A stretch of DNA of 38,250 nucleotides, taken from positions 1 to 38,250 of the IMG/VR virus record IMGVR_UViG_3300025322_000086; one strand, written 5' to 3'. Positions within the stretch are counted from its first letter, which is position 1; every line of letters starts with the position of its first letter. The DNA comes from a virus. Below are positions 1,564-19,162 of this stretch, piece by piece. The notes beneath the pieces are model-generated. The model ran no database searches. It saw only the letters and a program-made list of their open reading frames with translations, and was not told the DNA's origin. A program made the position numbers and the translations under genes.

Positions 1564-1953
1564 CTAAAACGGTGGGTCAATCAGCGCCCTCTGCTTAACA
1601 GGGGAATTGAGCAACCGGCCTACATAAGGATCCTCACCATCGTCGCCATTGTTCTTGTACTTGCGCCTCTCTGCAAGATTAGCACTCAAGGTGTCAACTC
1701 GCAGGTGCTCAGGATTCACGCACTGGTGATTGAAACAGTTGTGGCACACCTGAAGCCCATTAGGTATTGGACCGTAGAATAATTCATACACTACACGATG
1801 CACCGCAAGGCCCAGGTGCTTGCCATCTTTGCGGATGTTGATGCGGCCATAACGTCCGTGTCCGTCATCGCGTCCAAGCCAGTACCAACACCCACGAGTG
1901 ACATAAGTCCTAGCAAGGATTCTATCGAGTAGCGATATATACTTGCGGCTCAT
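1564..1953 (-). CDS. HNH endonuclease (HNH_3-like)
   Basis: A 129-residue free-standing HNH nuclease. It has the typical layout of phage HNH_3 proteins: a CWYW.G N-terminal patch, a YGRI strand, AHR-like VHRVVYELFYGPIP, then GLQVCHNCFNHQCVNPEHL, where the paired cysteines and histidines form the beta-beta-alpha metal core. Such proteins usually act as homing or nicking endonucleases and may be selfish. It overlaps the second HNH gene by ATGA. Two HNH genes of different types side by side suggests insertion of mobile nuclease genes downstream of the methylase. Confidence 0.85.
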   Translation of the reverse strand: MSRKYISLLDRILARTYVTRGCWYWLGRDDGHGRYGRINIRKDGKHLGLAVHRVVYELFYGPIPNGLQVCHNCFNHQCVNPEHLRVDTLSANLAERRKYKNNGDDGEDPYVGRLLNSPVKQRALIDPPF

Positions 1954-2252
1954 TTGTGCCAGTGATGCGCCTTGTCAATCGGAATGCCGCGCACGTCGCA
2001 GCCAGGGATGTTGCGGCCAGTGCCAAATTGGTCCCTATTCGTTTTGCGCCCATGACAGATGGCGCAAAGGCCTTGCAAGTTGGATAGCTTCCAATTCCAC
2101 TTATTGCCATCGATGTGATCGCACTGCCTCGAAGGCCTGCGCGAGCACATCCTGCAGATAGGGTCCCTAGCCAGCACAAGCTTAGAGAGCCTGCGCCACG
2201 CCCGCAGTGAGTATGGGTCGCGTCTGCCTTTAGAGTAGTGCGTTGAATACAC
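1950..2252 (-). CDS. HNH endonuclease (classic CxxC / DH / CxxCH type)
   Basis: HNH nuclease with WRRLSKLVLARD, then CRMCSRRPSRQCDHIDGN, and LQGLCAICHGRKT. The paired CxxC motifs bracket the DH catalytic core. The reading frame is open back to an ATG at 2321, but that start would overlap the methylase by 92 bases and has no ribosome binding site. I prefer the GTG at 2252, which overlaps by 23 bases. It could be a homing endonuclease, or an HNH packaging partner such as those acting with HK97-type terminases. The long distance from the terminase genes here argues for the former. Confidence 0.75.
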   Translation of the reverse strand: MYSTHYSKGRRDPYSLRAWRRLSKLVLARDPICRMCSRRPSRQCDHIDGNKWNWKLSNLQGLCAICHGRKTNRDQFGTGRNIPGCDVRGIPIDKAHHWHK

Positions 2253-3513
2253 TATGTCGATCCAAATAAGCAAGGATGTGTTGGTCAAGAGTAATCGGTT
2301 TGCCACCCTTGCGCCACACAAAGATAGGCTCGCAAAAGAGTGTGCGCCGTTTATCCTGGCTCTTAACTATCGAAGTGCCGGGCCGTGTTCCCAACCGCAT
2401 ACCGAGCACGCCCATAAAGTGAGCCTCGGGAAAAGTACCATTGACGTGATTAACAACCTCACGACAAAGCGAAGGAGAACCAGGAGCTAGGATTTTTCCT
2501 AAGTCACTAAGGTTAACCAGCATATAGCCCTCGTGGTATAACGCATTCCAAGCGGTGCGCAGGGTAACAAATAAGAAATCATACAACCATGAATGCAACG
2601 TTTGGTAACGCCGCCAGGATTGGTCTGGGTGGTCGCTATAACGCTCTGTATCGAAGTAAGGCGGCGACGTAAACAGCAGATTAAACCACTGATGGGTCTT
2701 CCACTTCTCAGCACGCACGCATTGAACCCACAATGGTTTCGTTACTCCAAATCCTCTATAGGCTTTTATCTGTGCAGCGTAGCCTTCAGCCAAATTAGGA
2801 TTTGGGTCTAACCCACGATATGACTTGACAGAGGGCGAACAGGCGGCCGCGGCTAACCGGTCACCCCAGCCGGCTGACGTGTCAAGCACATCACCGCCAC
2901 CGAACAATTCATAAACCGCCTTAGCGGTTGCAGGGCGAAACTGCGAAGCGATATAACCTCCACGCAAGTTAATCGCCGTCTCGATAGTCTTTGCGGTTAT
3001 CGCTTTCGACGCCATCAAGCTTGATGTAACTAGCATCCGGGCGGACATCTTGAATAAGCGCCTATCATTCCAATGCTCCACAAGGCTCTTGAATCTGTGC
3101 GTCGAGACTTGCGCCCGTTGTGCGTTGTGAAAGGGTGCAGAGCAACCCATACCCACTGAACTGGGCTTGATGCACCACGTAGGCACCAAGTCCTTGCCCT
3201 TATCGTTCGTGCGCCACACAGCGCGGCCGTCAGCCCGCTGCAACAAGCTATCGATGTTGAGGGCCCGCAATGCCTGCCTATCAGCACGTAATCTAGGACC
3301 CAGTTGTTGCGCCGCCTGGCTAGGGGTGATTGTGGTCATTGGCGGCCTGATGTTGTGTTCAGTCACGACGCGCCACAGCGCCCGAGTTAATTGCGGCACG
3401 CGATAGGCCGTCGTCAGGCGGCGCCATTCATCCGCAGAGATATACAAATCAGGCAAGCCCGTTGCCTTGTGCTTAAAGACGTATACAGCCAGATTTGGGT
3501 AGTCTATTTTCAT
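2230..3513 (-). CDS. DNA methyltransferase-like protein (TSPPY type)
   Basis: A 427-residue protein with a Rossmann methyltransferase core in the second half. The AdoMet motif is DVLDTSAGWGDRL (residues 208-220), the acidic ribose-binding position is in GLDPN (about 236), and the catalytic loop is FTSPPYF (281-287). The SPPY form is typical of amino-methyltransferases acting on exocyclic amines of cytosine or adenine. About 200 N-terminal residues precede the core and are not a recognised target-recognition domain. The gene overlaps the PLP-enzyme gene upstream by ATGA, so the two are probably made together. It may protect phage DNA from restriction or take part in a more complex base modification; that second idea is inference. 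Confidence 0.8.
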   Translation of the reverse strand: MKIDYPNLAVYVFKHKATGLPDLYISADEWRRLTTAYRVPQLTRALWRVVTEHNIRPPMTTITPSQAAQQLGPRLRADRQALRALNIDSLLQRADGRAVWRTNDKGKDLVPTWCIKPSSVGMGCSAPFHNAQRAQVSTHRFKSLVEHWNDRRLFKMSARMLVTSSLMASKAITAKTIETAINLRGGYIASQFRPATAKAVYELFGGGDVLDTSAGWGDRLAAAACSPSVKSYRGLDPNPNLAEGYAAQIKAYRGFGVTKPLWVQCVRAEKWKTHQWFNLLFTSPPYFDTERYSDHPDQSWRRYQTLHSWLYDFLFVTLRTAWNALYHEGYMLVNLSDLGKILAPGSPSLCREVVNHVNGTFPEAHFMGVLGMRLGTRPGTSIVKSQDKRRTLFCEPIFVWRKGGKPITLDQHILAYLDRHSVFNALL

Positions 3514-4241
3514 GACGCAACATTCCAGAATAAAGCCCCATTAATAGCATCCTGTTCGACAAATTGCCACACTTTAGCGTCATACCAAGGACAAGAAGGA
3601 AAGGGCGGTGGGCGCTTGGCACGTTCGTTAAACGCTTCAGGTGCGCGGTAGAGTTTGTGCAAGCGGCCCCTTTGCAGGGAAGAGGGTTCGTGGCCTACGC
3701 AGACACCGCGGAACTCAGCCCATGGCCATGCTTGCTGGAGACCACACGAGAGGGTCCCGGAAGAAATCGCAGTCCATACTTGCTTGGGTCGCAACTCCAA
3801 TGAGCGGGCAACCTGCGCTATCTTGTCGAGGACTTCAGGGCAGCGGGCCCCAAAGGGCACCAAGGCTGCATGCTTGCTACGCGCCACGATTGCGCGTGCT
3901 TTCGCTGTGCAGTTGCTCAGCATGCCATTAGCGATGGGCATAATTTCCGCGCCGTGCTCGCGGGCAAGCCTCGTATACTCAGAATACTCCTTGCGCTTCG
4001 GCACGAGGATAACCGCTGTTAGACCCTCTTGTTTACAGGCTGCGGCAATCACGCATTGTGCGTGCCCATACGTTGCTGAGGCATATACCAGCGCAGTGAC
4101 GCCCAACTTTTTCTGCTTGCGGACCCACACGGGCAAGTAACGTAGTTTCGTTCCTTCTCTTATCAGGTCATCCCGAACAACCCTAATAACGCGACCATCC
4201 GGAAGTTTGTATTTCATAATGAAGGGTGGAGGCAGTACCAT
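3510..4241 (-). CDS. PLP-dependent enzyme, fold type II (ACC deaminase / cysteine synthase-like)
   Basis: A 243-residue protein resembling the tryptophan synthase beta superfamily. Lys32 in EGTKLRYLP sits where ACC deaminases and D-cysteine desulfhydrases carry the Schiff-base lysine (NK.R). YASATYGHAQCVIAAACK matches the conserved 'S..GNHA' helix region, and ISSGTLSCGL (159-168) resembles the phosphate-binding glycine loop. It is about 80-100 residues shorter than typical family members. The start has TAGGAG eight bases upstream. Its ATGA overlap with the methylase suggests a two-gene functional unit. The substrate is unknown; amino-acid metabolism and DNA base hypermodification are both possible. 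Confidence 0.75.
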   Translation of the reverse strand: MVLPPPFIMKYKLPDGRVIRVVRDDLIREGTKLRYLPVWVRKQKKLGVTALVYASATYGHAQCVIAAACKQEGLTAVILVPKRKEYSEYTRLAREHGAEIMPIANGMLSNCTAKARAIVARSKHAALVPFGARCPEVLDKIAQVARSLELRPKQVWTAISSGTLSCGLQQAWPWAEFRGVCVGHEPSSLQRGRLHKLYRAPEAFNERAKRPPPFPSCPWYDAKVWQFVEQDAINGALFWNVAS

Positions 4242-5687: not shown

Positions 5688-6698
5688 TTATACCGTAGTT
5701 TTTAGGAAATAACAAACACGCAAAAAATCAGTCACTTGAGGCGGAGTTAGTTGTCCTGGGTCCTTCACACCGAATTTCCGCAAAACACCCGTTGCGGCTA
5801 TCACGCCCTGTCTGTGTTCTGCGAGTTGCGAGGCCAAATTGCACGCGCCAGTAAGGCCCACGTCGTCATCATCAAACAAAACCACTACCCGCTTGTTCTT
5901 TGTAATCGCCACGAGCGCCGCAAACTGTTCCTGCGTCCATGCCAGCCCCATCACCGCAACAATACCGATAAAACGTGATGAGTAAAAATCCAATTTCATT
6001 GCGTCTAATGGACCCTCAGTGATAAGTACCACCTCAGCATCGGTGCAGCTATCGCAGTTAAACAAATAGGACTTGGATAAATTTGCTGAGGTCAAATACC
6101 GGACCTCGTGGCCAATAATCGAACGTGCAGTAAAACCAACACGGCATCCGCCAACAACAAAGGGAACAATCAAACGATGCGCAAAGCGCCCCGATAGGCA
6201 GTACTCAAGTTGGTAGTGTTGCGCAACTTGGAATGGCTTATCAAAACCACGGAACATCAAATAATTAAGGAAACGCGCCTTGTATTTGTTTACGGGGTAC
6301 TCCCCAAGGGGCTTAGCATCTTGTGCGTACAATTCAGGCGTGGCGTCCTGCGTTATAGGCGCTTCTTCTTCATCTTTTAGTTGCTGCACGAGGACTTCAA
6401 AGGCGTCGATAGGGGCCCCTTCTTGTTGTTGCGCCTCACACAGTAAGCGCGCCTGGGACAATGAAATGTTGAGTAAGCGCTTGACCAAGTACCAAGGCAA
6501 TCGGCCGCTATGGTTAGCATTCCTAAAGCACCCCCAAACAGGATTACGCGCGTCCAGGGATAGGCCCATGTGCTCGCTAGGGTCATCACCACACATCGGG
6601 CATGATACCGAGATATTACCCTTTGCTGTATTCGGCCCATGGTCCACAAACGGAATTTTGTGGTCGATACAAAACCGCTGCCAATCAAACCGAACCAT
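5688..6698 (-). CDS. DNA primase (zinc finger plus Toprim)
   Basis: A 336-residue bacterial-type phage primase. The N-terminal zinc-binding domain has CPMC at residues 33-36, Cys57 and His63. The Toprim domain has the LITEGPLDAMKLD glutamate strand and the VVLFDDDDVGLTGA acidic strand, which bind catalytic metals for RNA primer synthesis. I chose the ATG at 6698, which has GGGAGG six bases upstream, over the in-frame codon at 6731. It overlaps the SNF2 helicase gene by 14 bases. There is no helicase domain, so it probably works with the DnaB-like helicase two genes upstream. Confidence 0.88.
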   Translation of the reverse strand: MVRFDWQRFCIDHKIPFVDHGPNTAKGNISVSCPMCGDDPSEHMGLSLDARNPVWGCFRNANHSGRLPWYLVKRLLNISLSQARLLCEAQQQEGAPIDAFEVLVQQLKDEEEAPITQDATPELYAQDAKPLGEYPVNKYKARFLNYLMFRGFDKPFQVAQHYQLEYCLSGRFAHRLIVPFVVGGCRVGFTARSIIGHEVRYLTSANLSKSYLFNCDSCTDAEVVLITEGPLDAMKLDFYSSRFIGIVAVMGLAWTQEQFAALVAITKNKRVVVLFDDDDVGLTGACNLASQLAEHRQGVIAATGVLRKFGVKDPGQLTPPQVTDFLRVCYFLKTTV

Positions 6699-8262
6699 CA
6701 GCAACCTCCCCCAGCGCTTCACTACCATCAAGGATTGATTTGAGGAGGTCGCGCCCCTCGGTAACGTACTGCAAAATCTTTTCCTCGACAGTACCCCGCA
6801 TTAATAGGTCATAGATAAAGACCGGATGCTTTTGCCCAGGGCGTACTAAACGCTTAATCAGCTGTTGACGGCGAATGGATTCAATCGGGCACTCATAGAC
6901 GATTGCACGCGAGCACGCATGTTGCGGATTAATGCCTTCAGTACCCAAACGATTGTTCAACAACAGTACGCGGCAAAATCGGTTACTGAGGAAGTATTCA
7001 AACGTGCCAGGGACATCCTTAGCACCGCCCCAAATGCGGCCGTAGCTAATTTTCATTTCATCAAGTAACTGACTTAGGAAAAGTCCACTGGCGTTGTACT
7101 CGTAAAAAACCAACCATTTAGAGTTAATGGGACTATCCAATAGCAGCTGCCGCACAGCCTCGATTTTGGGGTTCTCACCAAAGCGTACCTCAATCCTAGA
7201 ATCGTCATCGGCAGCCAAGCTAAGGAACCCACTCGCACATTGCCGCATACGCAGGAAAACAGCATCAAGGCTCTTGTAATCACCGCGCACTTCCCGCAAG
7301 CGCTGCACAATGCGGTTATAGTATGTAAGGCCTTCCTGTGACAGGTCCAAATGGATTGGAATGACTTGCAGCGGTGGCAACTCCAAATCTAATTCCGCCT
7401 CGTTGTAACGCAGACTGCGATTGCGCATCAAGCGGCGCAGCTGGGGTTCCATCTTATCGTTATAGACGTATTCAATGCCTTTCCAGTAATGGTCCCGTGC
7501 CGTGAAAAACGCCGCACGAAACAACCCAAGATAAGGACCGAATGTCAGCCCACGGTCGACTAACTTAAACAATGCCCACAATGGCGTTGGGTCCCGCCCA
7601 AATGGTGTACCCGTCAGAGCGTAACGGCGGTCAATAGTAGAGCTGAGGATAGAGCATAGAGAGTAGCCTAATGAACGATAGTTGCCGACACGGTGACCCT
7701 CATCATAGACAACCATGGAGAACTTCGACGCGAAGCTTTTCGCGGCATCCCATTCAACCACACGCTTATGCCTATCTGAATCCAACCGCGACATCAACAC
7801 CTCAAGGCCTTTGTAGAGCATCACATACACAGAACACTTACGCGCTAACAAGGACAAGCGGCGCTCCCTAGCACCATCCAGCACAGCGTAATCGAGGTCA
7901 GGGGCGTCTACGCGTATCTGTTCGACCCACGAGACGATGTGCAGCTGTTCAGGCACGAGAATCAATACACTTTTAGGCAAGGCCTTTTGGGCCTTCTCGA
8001 CGCGAATCAAATCCAGTATTGACTTGCTCTTGCCTCCGCCCATGTCGACAAAGAATAGATAGCCAGGGTACACCAAGCCGGCTGTGATGCACGCTATTTG
8101 AGACGGTCTAGGCTCGCGCAGGTATTTGTACCCGAGCTCGCGCAGGCCTTCGAGCAACCCTTTTGAGGGCGCGTGTTTCAATTCATCAGAATCCTCAAGC
8201 ACACGATTGAGGTATTTAGCCACCGCAGTTTTTGAAATCAGTCCTTGCCGCCACCTAGTCAT
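6685..8262 (-). CDS. SNF2-type superfamily 2 helicase
   Basis: A 525-residue SF2 ATPase. Motif I is DMGGGKS (residues 73-79), motif II is DEGH (187-190) in place of the usual DEAH/DEGH set, motif III is LTGTP (216-220), and motif VI is the QLIKRLVRPGQ arginine-finger segment near the C-terminus. This matches phage SNF2/RapA-like helicases, which remodel protein-DNA complexes or replication forks. The ATG at 8262 is chosen because it has GGGGA upstream and overlaps the replicative helicase by only eight bases; an upstream in-frame start at 8289 is weaker. Confidence 0.85.
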   Translation of the reverse strand: MTRWRQGLISKTAVAKYLNRVLEDSDELKHAPSKGLLEGLRELGYKYLREPRPSQIACITAGLVYPGYLFFVDMGGGKSKSILDLIRVEKAQKALPKSVLILVPEQLHIVSWVEQIRVDAPDLDYAVLDGARERRLSLLARKCSVYVMLYKGLEVLMSRLDSDRHKRVVEWDAAKSFASKFSMVVYDEGHRVGNYRSLGYSLCSILSSTIDRRYALTGTPFGRDPTPLWALFKLVDRGLTFGPYLGLFRAAFFTARDHYWKGIEYVYNDKMEPQLRRLMRNRSLRYNEAELDLELPPLQVIPIHLDLSQEGLTYYNRIVQRLREVRGDYKSLDAVFLRMRQCASGFLSLAADDDSRIEVRFGENPKIEAVRQLLLDSPINSKWLVFYEYNASGLFLSQLLDEMKISYGRIWGGAKDVPGTFEYFLSNRFCRVLLLNNRLGTEGINPQHACSRAIVYECPIESIRRQQLIKRLVRPGQKHPVFIYDLLMRGTVEEKILQYVTEGRDLLKSILDGSEALGEVADGSV

Positions 8263-13745: not shown

Positions 13746-16241
13746 ATGATTAAGCTAAAGCAGCCAAGCAATCCGTGTACTAATTGTCCTTTAGACAAGG
13801 CGCAATTACATCATCCCAAGATGTTGCCAACCGGCAGCCCAACACCCATCTGGTATATTTTGGGTGAGGCGCCTGGCGAAGTCGAGGATAAGCATGGCGA
13901 GCAATTCATCGGCAAGTCCGGCACGTTAATCCGCGACCGAATCAAAAGCCGTTGGCTGAAGTCCATAAGATGGAATAACACTATCCGCTGTAGACCGCCG
14001 GGCAATCGAGACCCAAGCGCCAAAGAGCTCGCCTGTTGTCGCTCGCTGCAAGTGCGCGACATCGAGCAATCAAAGCCGTGGGCGGTGCTGGCTGTTGGTC
14101 GGCTCGCGTTGCAGTGGTTTCTAGGTGACACGTTCAGCGAAAAGGAATTGAAGATTAGCGATTGGAGCGGCAAGCGCTTCATCGCCACGATAGGCAAGCA
14201 CACGTGTTGGGTTTATGTTGTCACGCACCCCGCGGCAATCCTGTACATCCAGCATGAGGCGAAGAAAGGCCCCGCGTATCTGCGCACATTCCAAGTCCAC
14301 CTACAGCGGGCATTTCTTGATTACGAACGGGAAGCAACACCCAAGGACTCGATTGATTATGAGCGTGAACCAAAGCCCGCCGTAGCACAACTTCCAGAGC
14401 TTGGTCGTGGCCGGTATCTGTTCGTCTTCGAGAAGTCCAAAATAATTGGGGCGCTGCAAGAATTGAAATCCAACAAGGACATATCGATTGACCTTGAGAC
14501 GAACAGCCTAAGACCCTACAGCATTAACCGCAAACTGCTGACAATCGCAGTCAGCACAGCAGAACGCACGATAGCATTTCCCTTTGAGCACCCAGAACGA
14601 CCATTGGACGCGGACGCACAAGCAGCGGTCGGCGCTTGCTTGTGCAGACTCTTGGCCCACAAAGCCCGAAAGGTGTGGGCCCATAAAGTACAATTTGAGA
14701 TTGAATGGTTATTGCCCTACCTAAACGAACAAACACTAACGACAGCGATTAACTGGCAGTGCACGCTTGCCCAAGCGTACGTCATCGACAGCAGGCCGGG
14801 GAATTCGCTAGGAGCATTGACCCAACGCTATTTAGGATTTAATGTCAAAGCGTACAGCCGCCTAGATGTCCATAATTTAGAGTATGCACCACTGCAAGAC
14901 GTGTTAATGTACAACGCCCTTGATGCCCAGGTCATAGAGCCGCTTGCCGGTATCCAAGGGCAGTATATCCGCCGTGAGAAGTTGGAGGCCATTTACTCAC
15001 TGATAAAGGACACCAGCGTGTCCTTTGCGTTGATGCAGGCAAAAGGAATCGAGCGTGACATTGAAACGGTAGACCTGCTGTCGCAGCAATACAAAGACAA
15101 GAAGGCCGCTATAGTCAAGCAGATTGCCACTGACCCTGACGTCCAGCGCCACTGTAAGCCAAATTTCAATCCGCTGTCCCCGGCCCAATTAGCTGTGTTC
15201 CTGTTCGATAAATTAGGCATCAGGACACAAGCACGCTCAACGAGTGAGGGCCTGTTAAAAACAATCAAGCACCCTGTTGCTAAGTTGGTACTTAAATTGC
15301 GCACACTCGCGAAGTTGAGGAGCACCTACTTAACGCCCTTCGCTGCAGGTGGTGCGCAAGTATTCGATGATGGGAAAATCCATACCGAGTATAGCGCAAC
15401 GACAACCGCCACAAGCCGCGGCTCATCGAGCAATCCCAACCTACAAAACTTCCCTGCCAGGAACCACCCTGAAATCCGTTCAATCATCAGGGCGCCAAAG
15501 GATTGCTGGTTGGTGAAATGTGACTACGGCCAGCTTGAGGCCCGCTGTATCGCAATGGCGAGTAAGGACAAAACACTGGTTGCTGAGTGCGTCGCTAACC
15601 AAGACATTCATCAGGACTGGACCCTCGTGCTAGCAGGAGAATTTCATCCAAAGATTATCAGCAACGAGAAGGCACTAAAGGAGTATAGGAATGCAGTCAA
15701 AAACAGCTGGACGTTTCCCATATTCTACGGTGCGAGTGTTGGCGCCGTAGCTTCATACCTAGAGGTTGACGAGCACAGACTAGCACCATTCTATAATCAG
15801 TTCCTCGACAAATATGGCGGCGTTAAACAATGGCAAGAAGCTGTCTGTTCCTTCTATCAGGCCCACAATTATTGCGAAACGCTCTTGGGCTTTCGTCGTT
15901 ACGGACCACTGAGCCGCAACGAGATAATCAACACACCAATCCAGGGTACTGGCGCCCACTTAACGTTCGAGGCGCAGAACAAGCTAAGCATGATGGCAGC
16001 GCAAGCAGACGAGCCTTGGTTGCGCCCCGTGATGAATGTCCATGACGACCTGACCTTTTATCTGCCAGATGATAAGATGGACGACGCAGTAGGCTTGATT
16101 GCCCGCATTATGTGTTGCTCTACTTTTCCTTGGGTCAACGTGCCCTTGTGTGTCGAACTGAGTGCGGGCAAAGCCTGGCATCCTGTCGAGCAAATCGCCA
16201 AATTCTATACCACTGATTTCATCCAAACGGAATTTACATGA
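13746..16241 (+). CDS. Uracil-DNA glycosylase family domain fused to family A DNA polymerase
   Basis: An 831-residue fusion. Residues 1-200 match family 4-type UDGs: Cys11, Cys14, Cys82 and Cys97/98 for an iron-sulfur cluster, GEAPGEVED (40-48), RCRPPGNR (81-88) and THPAAIL (160-166). Residues about 240-400 form a 3'-5' exonuclease with IDLET (Asp249, Glu251) and YNALD. The polymerase domain has motif A DYGQLEAR (Asp593), motif B with Arg648 and Lys652, and motif C VHDD (His766 to Asp768), where most family A enzymes have HDE. Phage SPO1 polymerase is a known example of a UDG domain joined to family A polymerase. It is the replicative polymerase here. Confidence 0.9.
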   Translation: MIKLKQPSNPCTNCPLDKAQLHHPKMLPTGSPTPIWYILGEAPGEVEDKHGEQFIGKSGTLIRDRIKSRWLKSIRWNNTIRCRPPGNRDPSAKELACCRSLQVRDIEQSKPWAVLAVGRLALQWFLGDTFSEKELKISDWSGKRFIATIGKHTCWVYVVTHPAAILYIQHEAKKGPAYLRTFQVHLQRAFLDYEREATPKDSIDYEREPKPAVAQLPELGRGRYLFVFEKSKIIGALQELKSNKDISIDLETNSLRPYSINRKLLTIAVSTAERTIAFPFEHPERPLDADAQAAVGACLCRLLAHKARKVWAHKVQFEIEWLLPYLNEQTLTTAINWQCTLAQAYVIDSRPGNSLGALTQRYLGFNVKAYSRLDVHNLEYAPLQDVLMYNALDAQVIEPLAGIQGQYIRREKLEAIYSLIKDTSVSFALMQAKGIERDIETVDLLSQQYKDKKAAIVKQIATDPDVQRHCKPNFNPLSPAQLAVFLFDKLGIRTQARSTSEGLLKTIKHPVAKLVLKLRTLAKLRSTYLTPFAAGGAQVFDDGKIHTEYSATTTATSRGSSSNPNLQNFPARNHPEIRSIIRAPKDCWLVKCDYGQLEARCIAMASKDKTLVAECVANQDIHQDWTLVLAGEFHPKIISNEKALKEYRNAVKNSWTFPIFYGASVGAVASYLEVDEHRLAPFYNQFLDKYGGVKQWQEAVCSFYQAHNYCETLLGFRRYGPLSRNEIINTPIQGTGAHLTFEAQNKLSMMAAQADEPWLRPVMNVHDDLTFYLPDDKMDDAVGLIARIMCCSTFPWVNVPLCVELSAGKAWHPVEQIAKFYTTDFIQTEFT

Positions 16242-17850: not shown

Positions 17851-18027
17851 ATGGAAAGCTTCACTAAGACGGCTATCATCGTGGGCGTAATGATTGCCGC
17901 GCCCGTTGTAATTTACCTCTACGCCCGAGCTATATTCTTGGCATGGTTTCACGTGAAACGTGATTATTTCTTCCCCACATTTAGGAGATCCAGCAATGGC
18001 ACTAAAACTACGCAAGACAAAGACTGA
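17851..18027 (+). CDS. 58-residue membrane protein overlapping the SSB gene
   Basis: A short frame beginning MESFTKTAIIVGVMIAAPVV with one long hydrophobic span (about residues 8-33) and a polar tail. It starts three bases after the previous stop and runs 32 bases into the SSB gene. The ribosome binding site is poor. The frame contains a parS-like palindrome, so part of its sequence may be constrained by a DNA function and not only by coding. Confidence 0.45.
   Translation: MESFTKTAIIVGVMIAAPVVIYLYARAIFLAWFHVKRDYFFPTFRRSSNGTKTTQDKD
17946..17959. promoter_or_regulatory. parS-like palindrome
   Basis: GTTTCACGTGAAAC is a perfect 14-bp palindrome identical to the centre of the bacterial chromosomal parS consensus (TGTTTCACGTGAAACA); only the two outermost bases differ here. 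ParB-family proteins load at such sites. No ParA or ParB gene is present in the window, so any reader would be host-encoded or encoded elsewhere. Confidence 0.5.
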
Positions 18028-19162
18028 ATCTATTGCTTCGCGCAAGTTCGTTTATCGAGGCCGCACGGCTGAGGATATCAGGGAGCGGCAACAACGCCGC
18101 GGCCTATCGCAAGAAAGCTTTGTCCTTTCGCATGTTCCGTTTTTCTCACCGGACAAGGGCGACAATACTATCCGGTTTCTACCACCGGCCAGCACAAGCG
18201 AGTCCAGGTATTACGGACTCGACTTGGCCATCCACTACGGCATCGGGCCCGACAATAACGCGTACCTCTGCCCCAAGGTAATGAAGGATGAGCCTTGTCC
18301 CATGTGCGAAGAACGCAAGCGTGCCGCGGCTGCCGGTGAAACTGAATACGCGGCGGCGCTGGCACCGAGGGACCGTGTAGGCGTGTACCTCGTTGACCGA
18401 GGCAAAGAGGGCAAGGGCCCTATGTTCTGGTCGATGCCCTGGGGCCTTGATAAGGACCTCATCAACATCAGCCAGGACAAAAAGACGAAGAGGGTCTACC
18501 AAATCGACCACCCAGAGGAGGGTTACGACGTGTCATTCACCAAGGAAGGCGAGAAAAAACGCACCAAGTACGTGGGCGTGCAAATCCTACGCGAATCGTC
18601 GCCGCTTTCTGATGATGAGGAGACCCAAGCCCGCTGGTTGCAATGGCTTGAGGACAATCCCATAGAGTCCGTGCTTATCTTCTATGATTATGACCACCTT
18701 GCTGAGGCCTTCAGCGGCGGCTTAACCGAGGACGTCAAAGAAGAGGAAGAAGTGCCACCGAAAAAGGTGAAGCTTGAGCCACGAGGGAAAAAGCCCGCCG
18801 TACGACAACAGGAGGAGGAACAGGAGGAGGAACAGGAGGAGGAACAGGAGGAGGAACAGGAGGAGGAACAGGAGGAGGAACAGGAGGAGGAAAAGAGGGA
18901 CGTAGACCGGCTAGGTAAGCATCGACCAAAAAAGGCCAAGCTTCAAGACGCCATCACACTCGAAGAACTGCAAGAAATGAAGGAAGATGATTTGGTTGAC
19001 CTTGCCGAGTCCAAGGGGATAGAAATCCCCGACGACGTGGAATTTGATGCCCTGCCGGATTTCGTTGAATGGTTGGCCAAAAAGTTAGGCCTCAGCGCAG
19101 AGAAGAAGCCAAGCGGAGCAACTGACTACCGGCAACGGCTGCGCGCACTACGCACCAAGTAG
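17996..19162 (+). CDS. gp32-like single-stranded DNA-binding protein
   Basis: A 388-residue protein resembling T4 gp32-type SSBs. It has a basic N-terminus (MALKLRKTKT), then a core with FLPP, an HYG patch and a zinc-type cluster (YLCPKVMKDEPCPMCEERK). A long acidic segment follows, built from seven QEEE repeats. Unusually, after the acidic run there is a further helical unit (LEELQEMKEDDLVDLAESKGIEIP) resembling a SAP or LEM-like fold. The ATG at 17996 has TTTAGGAGATC upstream. Acidic SSB tails normally recruit replication and recombination partners. Confidence 0.8.
   Translation: MALKLRKTKTESIASRKFVYRGRTAEDIRERQQRRGLSQESFVLSHVPFFSPDKGDNTIRFLPPASTSESRYYGLDLAIHYGIGPDNNAYLCPKVMKDEPCPMCEERKRAAAAGETEYAAALAPRDRVGVYLVDRGKEGKGPMFWSMPWGLDKDLINISQDKKTKRVYQIDHPEEGYDVSFTKEGEKKRTKYVGVQILRESSPLSDDEETQARWLQWLEDNPIESVLIFYDYDHLAEAFSGGLTEDVKEEEEVPPKKVKLEPRGKKPAVRQQEEEQEEEQEEEQEEEQEEEQEEEQEEEKRDVDRLGKHRPKKAKLQDAITLEELQEMKEDDLVDLAESKGIEIPDDVEFDALPDFVEWLAKKLGLSAEKKPSGATDYRQRLRALRTK
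18809..18892 (+). repeat. Seven tandem copies of a 12-base unit (QEEE)
   Basis: Seven identical, uninterrupted copies of caggaggaggaa encode Gln-Glu-Glu-Glu repeats in the acidic region of the SSB. Perfect identity at third codon positions shows recent expansion by slippage or unequal recombination, and the copy number probably varies between related phages. Confidence 0.95.

Follow-up and report, generated by a model that had tools for sequence, protein, structure and literature searches.

The window analyzed here is a stretch of 38,250 bases from an IMG/VR virus record (IMGVR_UViG_3300025322_000086). It carries two coupled genes on the minus strand, one encoding a compact fold-type-II enzyme dependent on pyridoxal 5'-phosphate (PLP) and the other a class I methyltransferase homologue with motifs for binding of S-adenosylmethionine (SAM) (Table 1). 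The PLP open reading frame (3510-4241) starts with ATG and stops with TGA. The original prediction, made from the sequence alone, described a fold-type-II PLP protein coupled through ATGA to a TSPPY methylase; this arrangement is confirmed by the reading frames, the ribosome-binding site, the overlap, and the profile and structure matches. Its statement that no other amino-acid metabolism is in view also holds, since the remaining window genes were assigned to replication, recombination, HNH and structural functions. An amino acid:DNA transferase (PF18724), a thymidylate-synthase homologue or a kinase was not seen among the window genes scanned, in a record that may be a fragment; a genome-wide search likewise gave no match, with no signal from a positive control.

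Table 1. Positions of the two coupled genes and of their main features in the window
Feature	Position	Strand	Basis
Compact fold-type-II PLP enzyme (M6 gp52 / phrog_7093 superfamily), 243 amino acids	3510-4241	-	Reading frame, profile, alignment, model
Class I SAM methyltransferase homologue, 427 amino acids, motif I DTSAGWGD and motif IV TSPPYFDTERYS	2230-3513	-	Reading frame, motifs, model
ATGA overlap of PLP stop and methyltransferase start	3510-3513	-	Direct reading of sequence
Ribosome-binding site AGGAG, 8 nt 5' of the PLP start codon	4250-4254	-	Direct reading of sequence
Lys32 codon, predicted Schiff-base lysine, family-invariant, within REGTKLR	4146-4148	-	Alignment
SSGT (S160-S161-G162-T163) glycine loop, predicted PLP phosphate-binding loop	3753-3764	-	Alignment
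Y220-D221-A222-K223, in the C-terminal signature PPFPSxxxYDAKxW...FWN common with M6 gp52	3573-3584	-	Alignment
TSPPY, motif IV of exocyclic-amine methyltransferases, residues 282-286	2656-2670	-	Motif
DTSAGWGD, motif I, SAM binding	2860-2883	-	Motif

The PLP enzyme and its phage relatives

The window PLP protein matches PF00291 (PALP) with an E-value of 9e-7 and 29 bits, under the gathering score of 35 that is passed by its relatives P0001 and P0004 (the latter from Microcystis phage Mae-JY30). The match to phrog_7093 is nearly full-length (E 6.4e-28, residues 18-242 to 17-278 of 279). Full-length relatives are found at 34-48% identity. Typical fold-type-II enzymes have about 80 residues more, yet the alignment to them covers the window protein from end to end. 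An AlphaFold model, built from an alignment of 76 sequences, has a mean predicted local distance difference test score (pLDDT) of 96.5 and a predicted template modelling score (pTM) of 0.92. It matches a homologue of 1-aminocyclopropane-1-carboxylate (ACC) deaminase (1j0a) over 243 of 243 residues (Z 24.0, 2.4 Å) and D-cysteine desulfhydrase over 241 residues (Z 23.9). The phage protein differs from both enzymes in its smaller size, in sharing only 15-20% identity with them, and in its phage-specific clade and partner.

In alignment with a chromosomal ACC-deaminase-like protein, Lys32 corresponds to GGNK, the GSG/SSG loop to TGST, and Y220-D221-A222-K223 to YEGK. Lys32 and G162 are invariant in the family alignment, and Lys32, the GSG loop, Tyr220, Asp221 and Lys223 are essentially invariant even between very divergent members. 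The first three PLP domains found (Mae-JY30, ZS04 and R6L) have 60 invariant columns in common. In ACC deaminase the residue following the tyrosine touches the pyridine nitrogen of PLP, and an acid at that place suits carbanion chemistry. By this correspondence Asp221 would be the residue beside the pyridine nitrogen, which is Glu in ACC deaminase. Alignment and model support a complete fold-type-II enzyme with a predicted Schiff-base lysine. Lys32 and the SSGT loop had been put forward as hints of activity; both have aligned counterparts in the ACC-deaminase-like protein, Lys32 matching its Schiff-base lysine, and the fold-type-II model is of high confidence.

The family phrog_7093, annotated as 'threonine dehydratase', includes Bordetella phage CN2 gp11 (521 bits) and Pseudomonas phage M6 gp52, the M6 and CN2 proteins being 81% identical. 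In CN2 the PLP gene lies directly downstream of an amino acid:DNA transferase gene (PF18724, 4e-38). The gene that follows it in both phages is annotated as 'photolyase', and the CN2 copy of that gene is a weak radical-SAM match. The DNA of M6 contains 5-(2-aminoethyl)deoxyuridine (PMC6449724), and in SN1 the genes listed for the M6-type thymidine-hypermodification cassette include the orthologue of M6 gp52, a PLP enzyme (PMC9476957). The general statement of the original prediction, that some phages use PLP enzymes in base hypermodification, can now be tied to this family.

Maximum-likelihood analysis places the phage PLP proteins in a single group (100/98), separate from 15 chromosomal PALP enzymes taken from two hosts. 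Only two rows labelled cellular fall within this group, both of them prophage-type copies. Inside it, the M6 clade pairs with a large-phage clade (96/90), and a third clade (99/97) contains the window protein. A C-terminus with (Y/W)D.K and FWN is common to all phage clades. The closest characterized relatives of the window enzyme, as judged from sequence, are M6 gp52 and its orthologues, which resemble it in clade, in near full-length profile match, in the PF..(Y/W)DxK and FWN C-terminus, and in small size. Identity of the window protein to this family is, however, only about 25%. The M6 system also differs from the window, where an amino acid:DNA transferase, a radical-SAM enzyme and a thymidylate synthase are not in view and the partner is an amino-methyltransferase homologue.

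The large-phage clade provides another setting. A phrog_7093 protein is present in 13 of 28 records of large or T4-like phages with TSPPYFxxExYS methyltransferases. In five of the records (L208, L242, L256, L264 and L269) the PLP gene is clustered with an asparagine-synthetase-like gene, a methyltransferase gene and usually a thymidylate-synthase-like gene (e.g., L242:910-5221). From its gene content, this cluster looks like a second, independent context resembling base hypermodification.

The methyltransferase and the census of the pair

The model of the window methyltransferase (pLDDT 88.3, pTM 0.89) has a class I fold and is nearest to TrmN (Z 15.3) and Trm11, with Z-scores of 15.3-14.7; both enzymes methylate exocyclic amines in RNA. 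General class I fold matches of this kind do not decide the target base. PPY, a Glu at +4 and a Tyr at +6 from PPY are invariant in 21 divergent members, and a large subgroup has Cys directly before PPY. Large or T4-like phages encode the closest relatives of the window methyltransferase (29-37% identity), which contain TSPPYFxxExYS and frequently occur as tandem copies. L205, L208, L244, L247 and L264 each have two to four TSPPY paralogues in tandem, perhaps with separate recognition sequences. The family has SAM motif I and PPY motif IV in common with the N4-cytosine and N6-adenine DNA methyltransferases of PF01555, the cut-off of which is exceeded by relatives P0001 and P0003 (the latter from Mae-JY30). 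It differs from those enzymes in that motif I comes before motif IV, in the conserved PPYxxxExY extension, and in the large subgroup with Cys in place of Asp, Ser or Asn before PPY. Taken together, motifs and model point to transfer to an exocyclic amine and do not specify the group that is transferred.

Among annotated phages, tblastn found three carriers, in each of which the PLP region lies inside or adjoining a 'DNA modification methylase'. Erythrobacter phages R6L and ZS04 and Microcystis phage Mae-JY30 are cultured carriers. A viral scan with the window PLP protein as single query gave no match, and a profile of three sequences was needed; with it, relatives were found on 485 viral contigs and on 30 bacterial genome contigs, mostly of Alphaproteobacteria. 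The plasmid records searched gave no match. In two Rhodobacterales contigs (L110 and L113) the PLP frame is seemingly broken across frames, and these may be decayed prophage copies or assembly errors. Retrieval of loci relied on two short peptide patterns, with the 80 best of the 485 viral relatives kept; methyltransferase profiles were seeded from the PLP neighbours. The resulting census comprises 86 non-redundant PLP loci (> 5% apart) from viral contigs, phages and prophages.

A methyltransferase gene lies on the same strand in 79 of the 86 loci (5 fused, 59 within 150 bp and 15 within 4 kb), so that the pair predicted from the window is fused or adjacent in most relatives. The partner is a (T/S)(S/C)PPY methyltransferase. 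Gene order is variable, the methyltransferase being upstream of, downstream of or split around the PLP domain. Seven loci lack such a partner (L054, L064, L028, L046, L083, L071 and L076), three of which (L028, L046 and L083) are short records or contig ends. A non-adjacent methyltransferase gene is present elsewhere in the record in L007, L013, L054 and L064. In L071 and L076, genes resembling thymidylate synthase and thymidylate kinase adjoin the PLP gene (5899-6825), which belongs to the clade of the window, and no such methyltransferase was found in the record. Neighbor clustering revealed no third recurrent modification gene beside the pair, the recurrent neighbors being packaging and replication genes only. 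A search for an amino acid:DNA transferase in 15 carriers gave no match, with no signal from the positive controls either.

In Mae-JY30 a ParB-like gene, an SCPPY methyltransferase gene and the PLP gene are consecutive and overlapping. ZS04 and R6L each encode one chain of over 800 amino acids that opens with a ParB-like part, continues with the motif I portion of the methyltransferase and then the PLP domain, and closes with the remainder of the methyltransferase from SCPPY onward. The methyltransferase is split by the PLP domain at one common point (profile position ~138/139) in R6L, ZS04, L053, L021/L023, L068 and L011. In the R6L paper the fused protein is labelled only as a CcrM-like methylase. 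A gene for a PAPS-reductase-like protein (2323-3366) lies about 1.4 kb from the fused gene of R6L (L001).

The methyltransferase can dispense with the PLP gene. A separate scan seeded with the methyltransferase found a PLP gene at 43 of 80 loci and none in the fetched DNA stretch at the other 37. The PLP gene was absent in 11 whole methyltransferase records, in a scan that gave signals from four positive control records. Its presence is scattered over the methyltransferase tree, with 12 parsimony changes, of which at least 4 are forced by well-supported branches. Between L147 and L153, which are 94% identical, a segment of 753 bp with the PLP gene is present in one and cleanly missing from the other. 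No substitute partner was found beside methyltransferases without the PLP gene, the usual neighbor being just a ParB-like gene, and only two weak columns separate methyltransferases with and without it. The reverse case, a PLP gene of the window clade in a phage without the methyltransferase, is limited to L071/L076 and fragments. Because the methyltransferase is frequent without the PLP gene and the reverse is almost never seen, the PLP enzyme is probably the second to act and takes the product of the methyltransferase as its substrate.

Proposed action on DNA and competing explanations

A small PLP enzyme beside or fused to a methyltransferase-like enzyme, with its closest relative in a phage pathway that puts amino-acid-derived groups on DNA, suggests that the pair probably writes a modification of phage DNA. 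Joint action on DNA, as originally proposed, gains support from the insertion of the PLP domain in the methyltransferase and from homology to the PLP enzyme of the M6 cassette. The reading considered fairly probable is a two-step module for DNA base hypermodification. The methyltransferase homologue would use SAM, or a molecule like it, as donor of a group for the exocyclic amine of cytosine or adenine at a recognition sequence. The PLP enzyme would then form an external aldimine with the DNA-borne amino-acid group and remodel that group, most simply by decarboxylation. A more specific form is offered tentatively: the 3-amino-3-carboxypropyl group of SAM may be transferred and then decarboxylated to a cationic 3-aminopropyl group, which would yield an end product similar to the aminoethyl group in M6 DNA. 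It is possible, though doubtful at present, that this chemistry constitutes a widespread hypermodification route with no 5-hydroxymethyl or carboxymethyl handle, in which sequence-specific aminocarboxypropylation and PLP-dependent decarboxylation yield an aminoalkylated base, sometimes within one polypeptide. The modified base may serve as a shield against host nucleases.

A published account of the PLP-methyltransferase pair was not found among open-licence papers. A parallel in logic is the CmoA/CmoX/CmoY system of 5-carboxymethylcytosine, in which a methyltransferase homologue sets a handle, a second enzyme elaborates it, and ParB-like proteins are often near; its authors did not find an N4/N6 counterpart in their search (PMC12783734). 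CmoX differs as a C5-cytosine enzyme that has SPPC and uses carboxy-SAM, whereas the pair described here has TSPPY or (S/T)CPPY, without the SPPC motif, and a PLP-dependent second enzyme.

Several observations weigh against the hypermodification reading. In fold, the PLP model comes nearest to deaminases and lyases rather than to decarboxylases, and M6 gp52 is itself only reportedly a PLP-dependent decarboxylase. The PLP domain of the fused proteins is inserted after helix B and before strand 3, in the standard topology the face opposite the SAM site, and this position does not imply direct channelling. The frequent occurrence of the methyltransferase without the PLP gene fits plain methylation equally with amino-acid transfer, and the likeness of its model to ordinary RNA N-methyltransferases (TrmN and Trm11) makes plain methylation possible.

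Plain N4-methylcytosine or N6-methyladenine formation, with the PLP protein as a mere fellow traveller of the auxiliary D-cysteine desulfhydrase or ACC-deaminase-like kind, would agree with the closest solved folds of that protein and with a methyltransferase that carries both SAM and PPY motifs and is often found alone. It is nevertheless considered improbable, given the insertion of the PLP domain within the methyltransferase, the near-exclusive pairing in the 86 PLP loci, the separation of the phage proteins from the sampled chromosomal enzymes, and the lack of a further recurrent metabolic neighbor in the clustering. An explanation by cofactor tailoring, in which the PLP enzyme alters SAM or a precursor into a donor that the methyltransferase homologue puts on DNA, is judged rather unlikely. 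It has a phage precedent in CmoX, a methyltransferase homologue supplied with carboxy-SAM by a dedicated synthase, CmoA (PMC12783734), and tight coupling and fusion would help delivery of the donor. Yet the methyltransferase is little changed after loss of the PLP gene (L147/L153), few positions tell methyltransferases with the gene from those without it, and the asymmetry in presence and absence weighs against the PLP enzyme as maker of an essential cofactor. The nearest relative, M6 gp52, moreover belongs to a cassette modifying DNA-borne groups, with no such methyltransferase adjoining.

Beta-replacement and desulfhydration are typical fold-type-II chemistries, and the PLP enzyme could by these means supply a base that the methyltransferase has prepared with sulfide or with an alanyl group derived from aminoacrylate; the PAPS-reductase-like gene of R6L would fit such a role. 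Ser or Thr near the pyridine nitrogen is common in beta-replacing fold-type-II enzymes. The expected residue here is Asp221, comparable to the Glu of ACC deaminase, and no sulfur-transfer gene is recurrent among the neighbors, which makes this donor role quite improbable. A non-catalytic PLP-like domain, acting as scaffold or ligand sensor for the methyltransferase, would agree with the compact size of the protein and with its insertion, by the inferred topology, on the side of the fold opposite the SAM site. Such a role is very improbable in view of the near-invariance of the predicted catalytic residues across very divergent members.

If the hypermodification reading is true, at least several hundred of the phages sampled would produce a modified base not described before, using a machinery of two genes or one polypeptide, and a second chemical entry to amino-acid-decorated DNA would exist besides the hydroxymethyluridine route. 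The modification may then also account for restriction resistance in such phages. Enzymes that set an amine on chosen DNA sequences would be useful as labelling tools.

Other genes of the window

Directly downstream of the methyltransferase gene are two mutually overlapping HNH endonuclease genes (1564-2321, minus strand). An 831-amino-acid family A DNA polymerase is encoded on the plus strand (13746-16241) and carries an N-terminal domain of the uracil-DNA-glycosylase superfamily in the same protein. Also on the plus strand (17960-19162) is a gene for a 400-amino-acid protein, the C-terminal part of which contains a long acidic EEEQ repeat.
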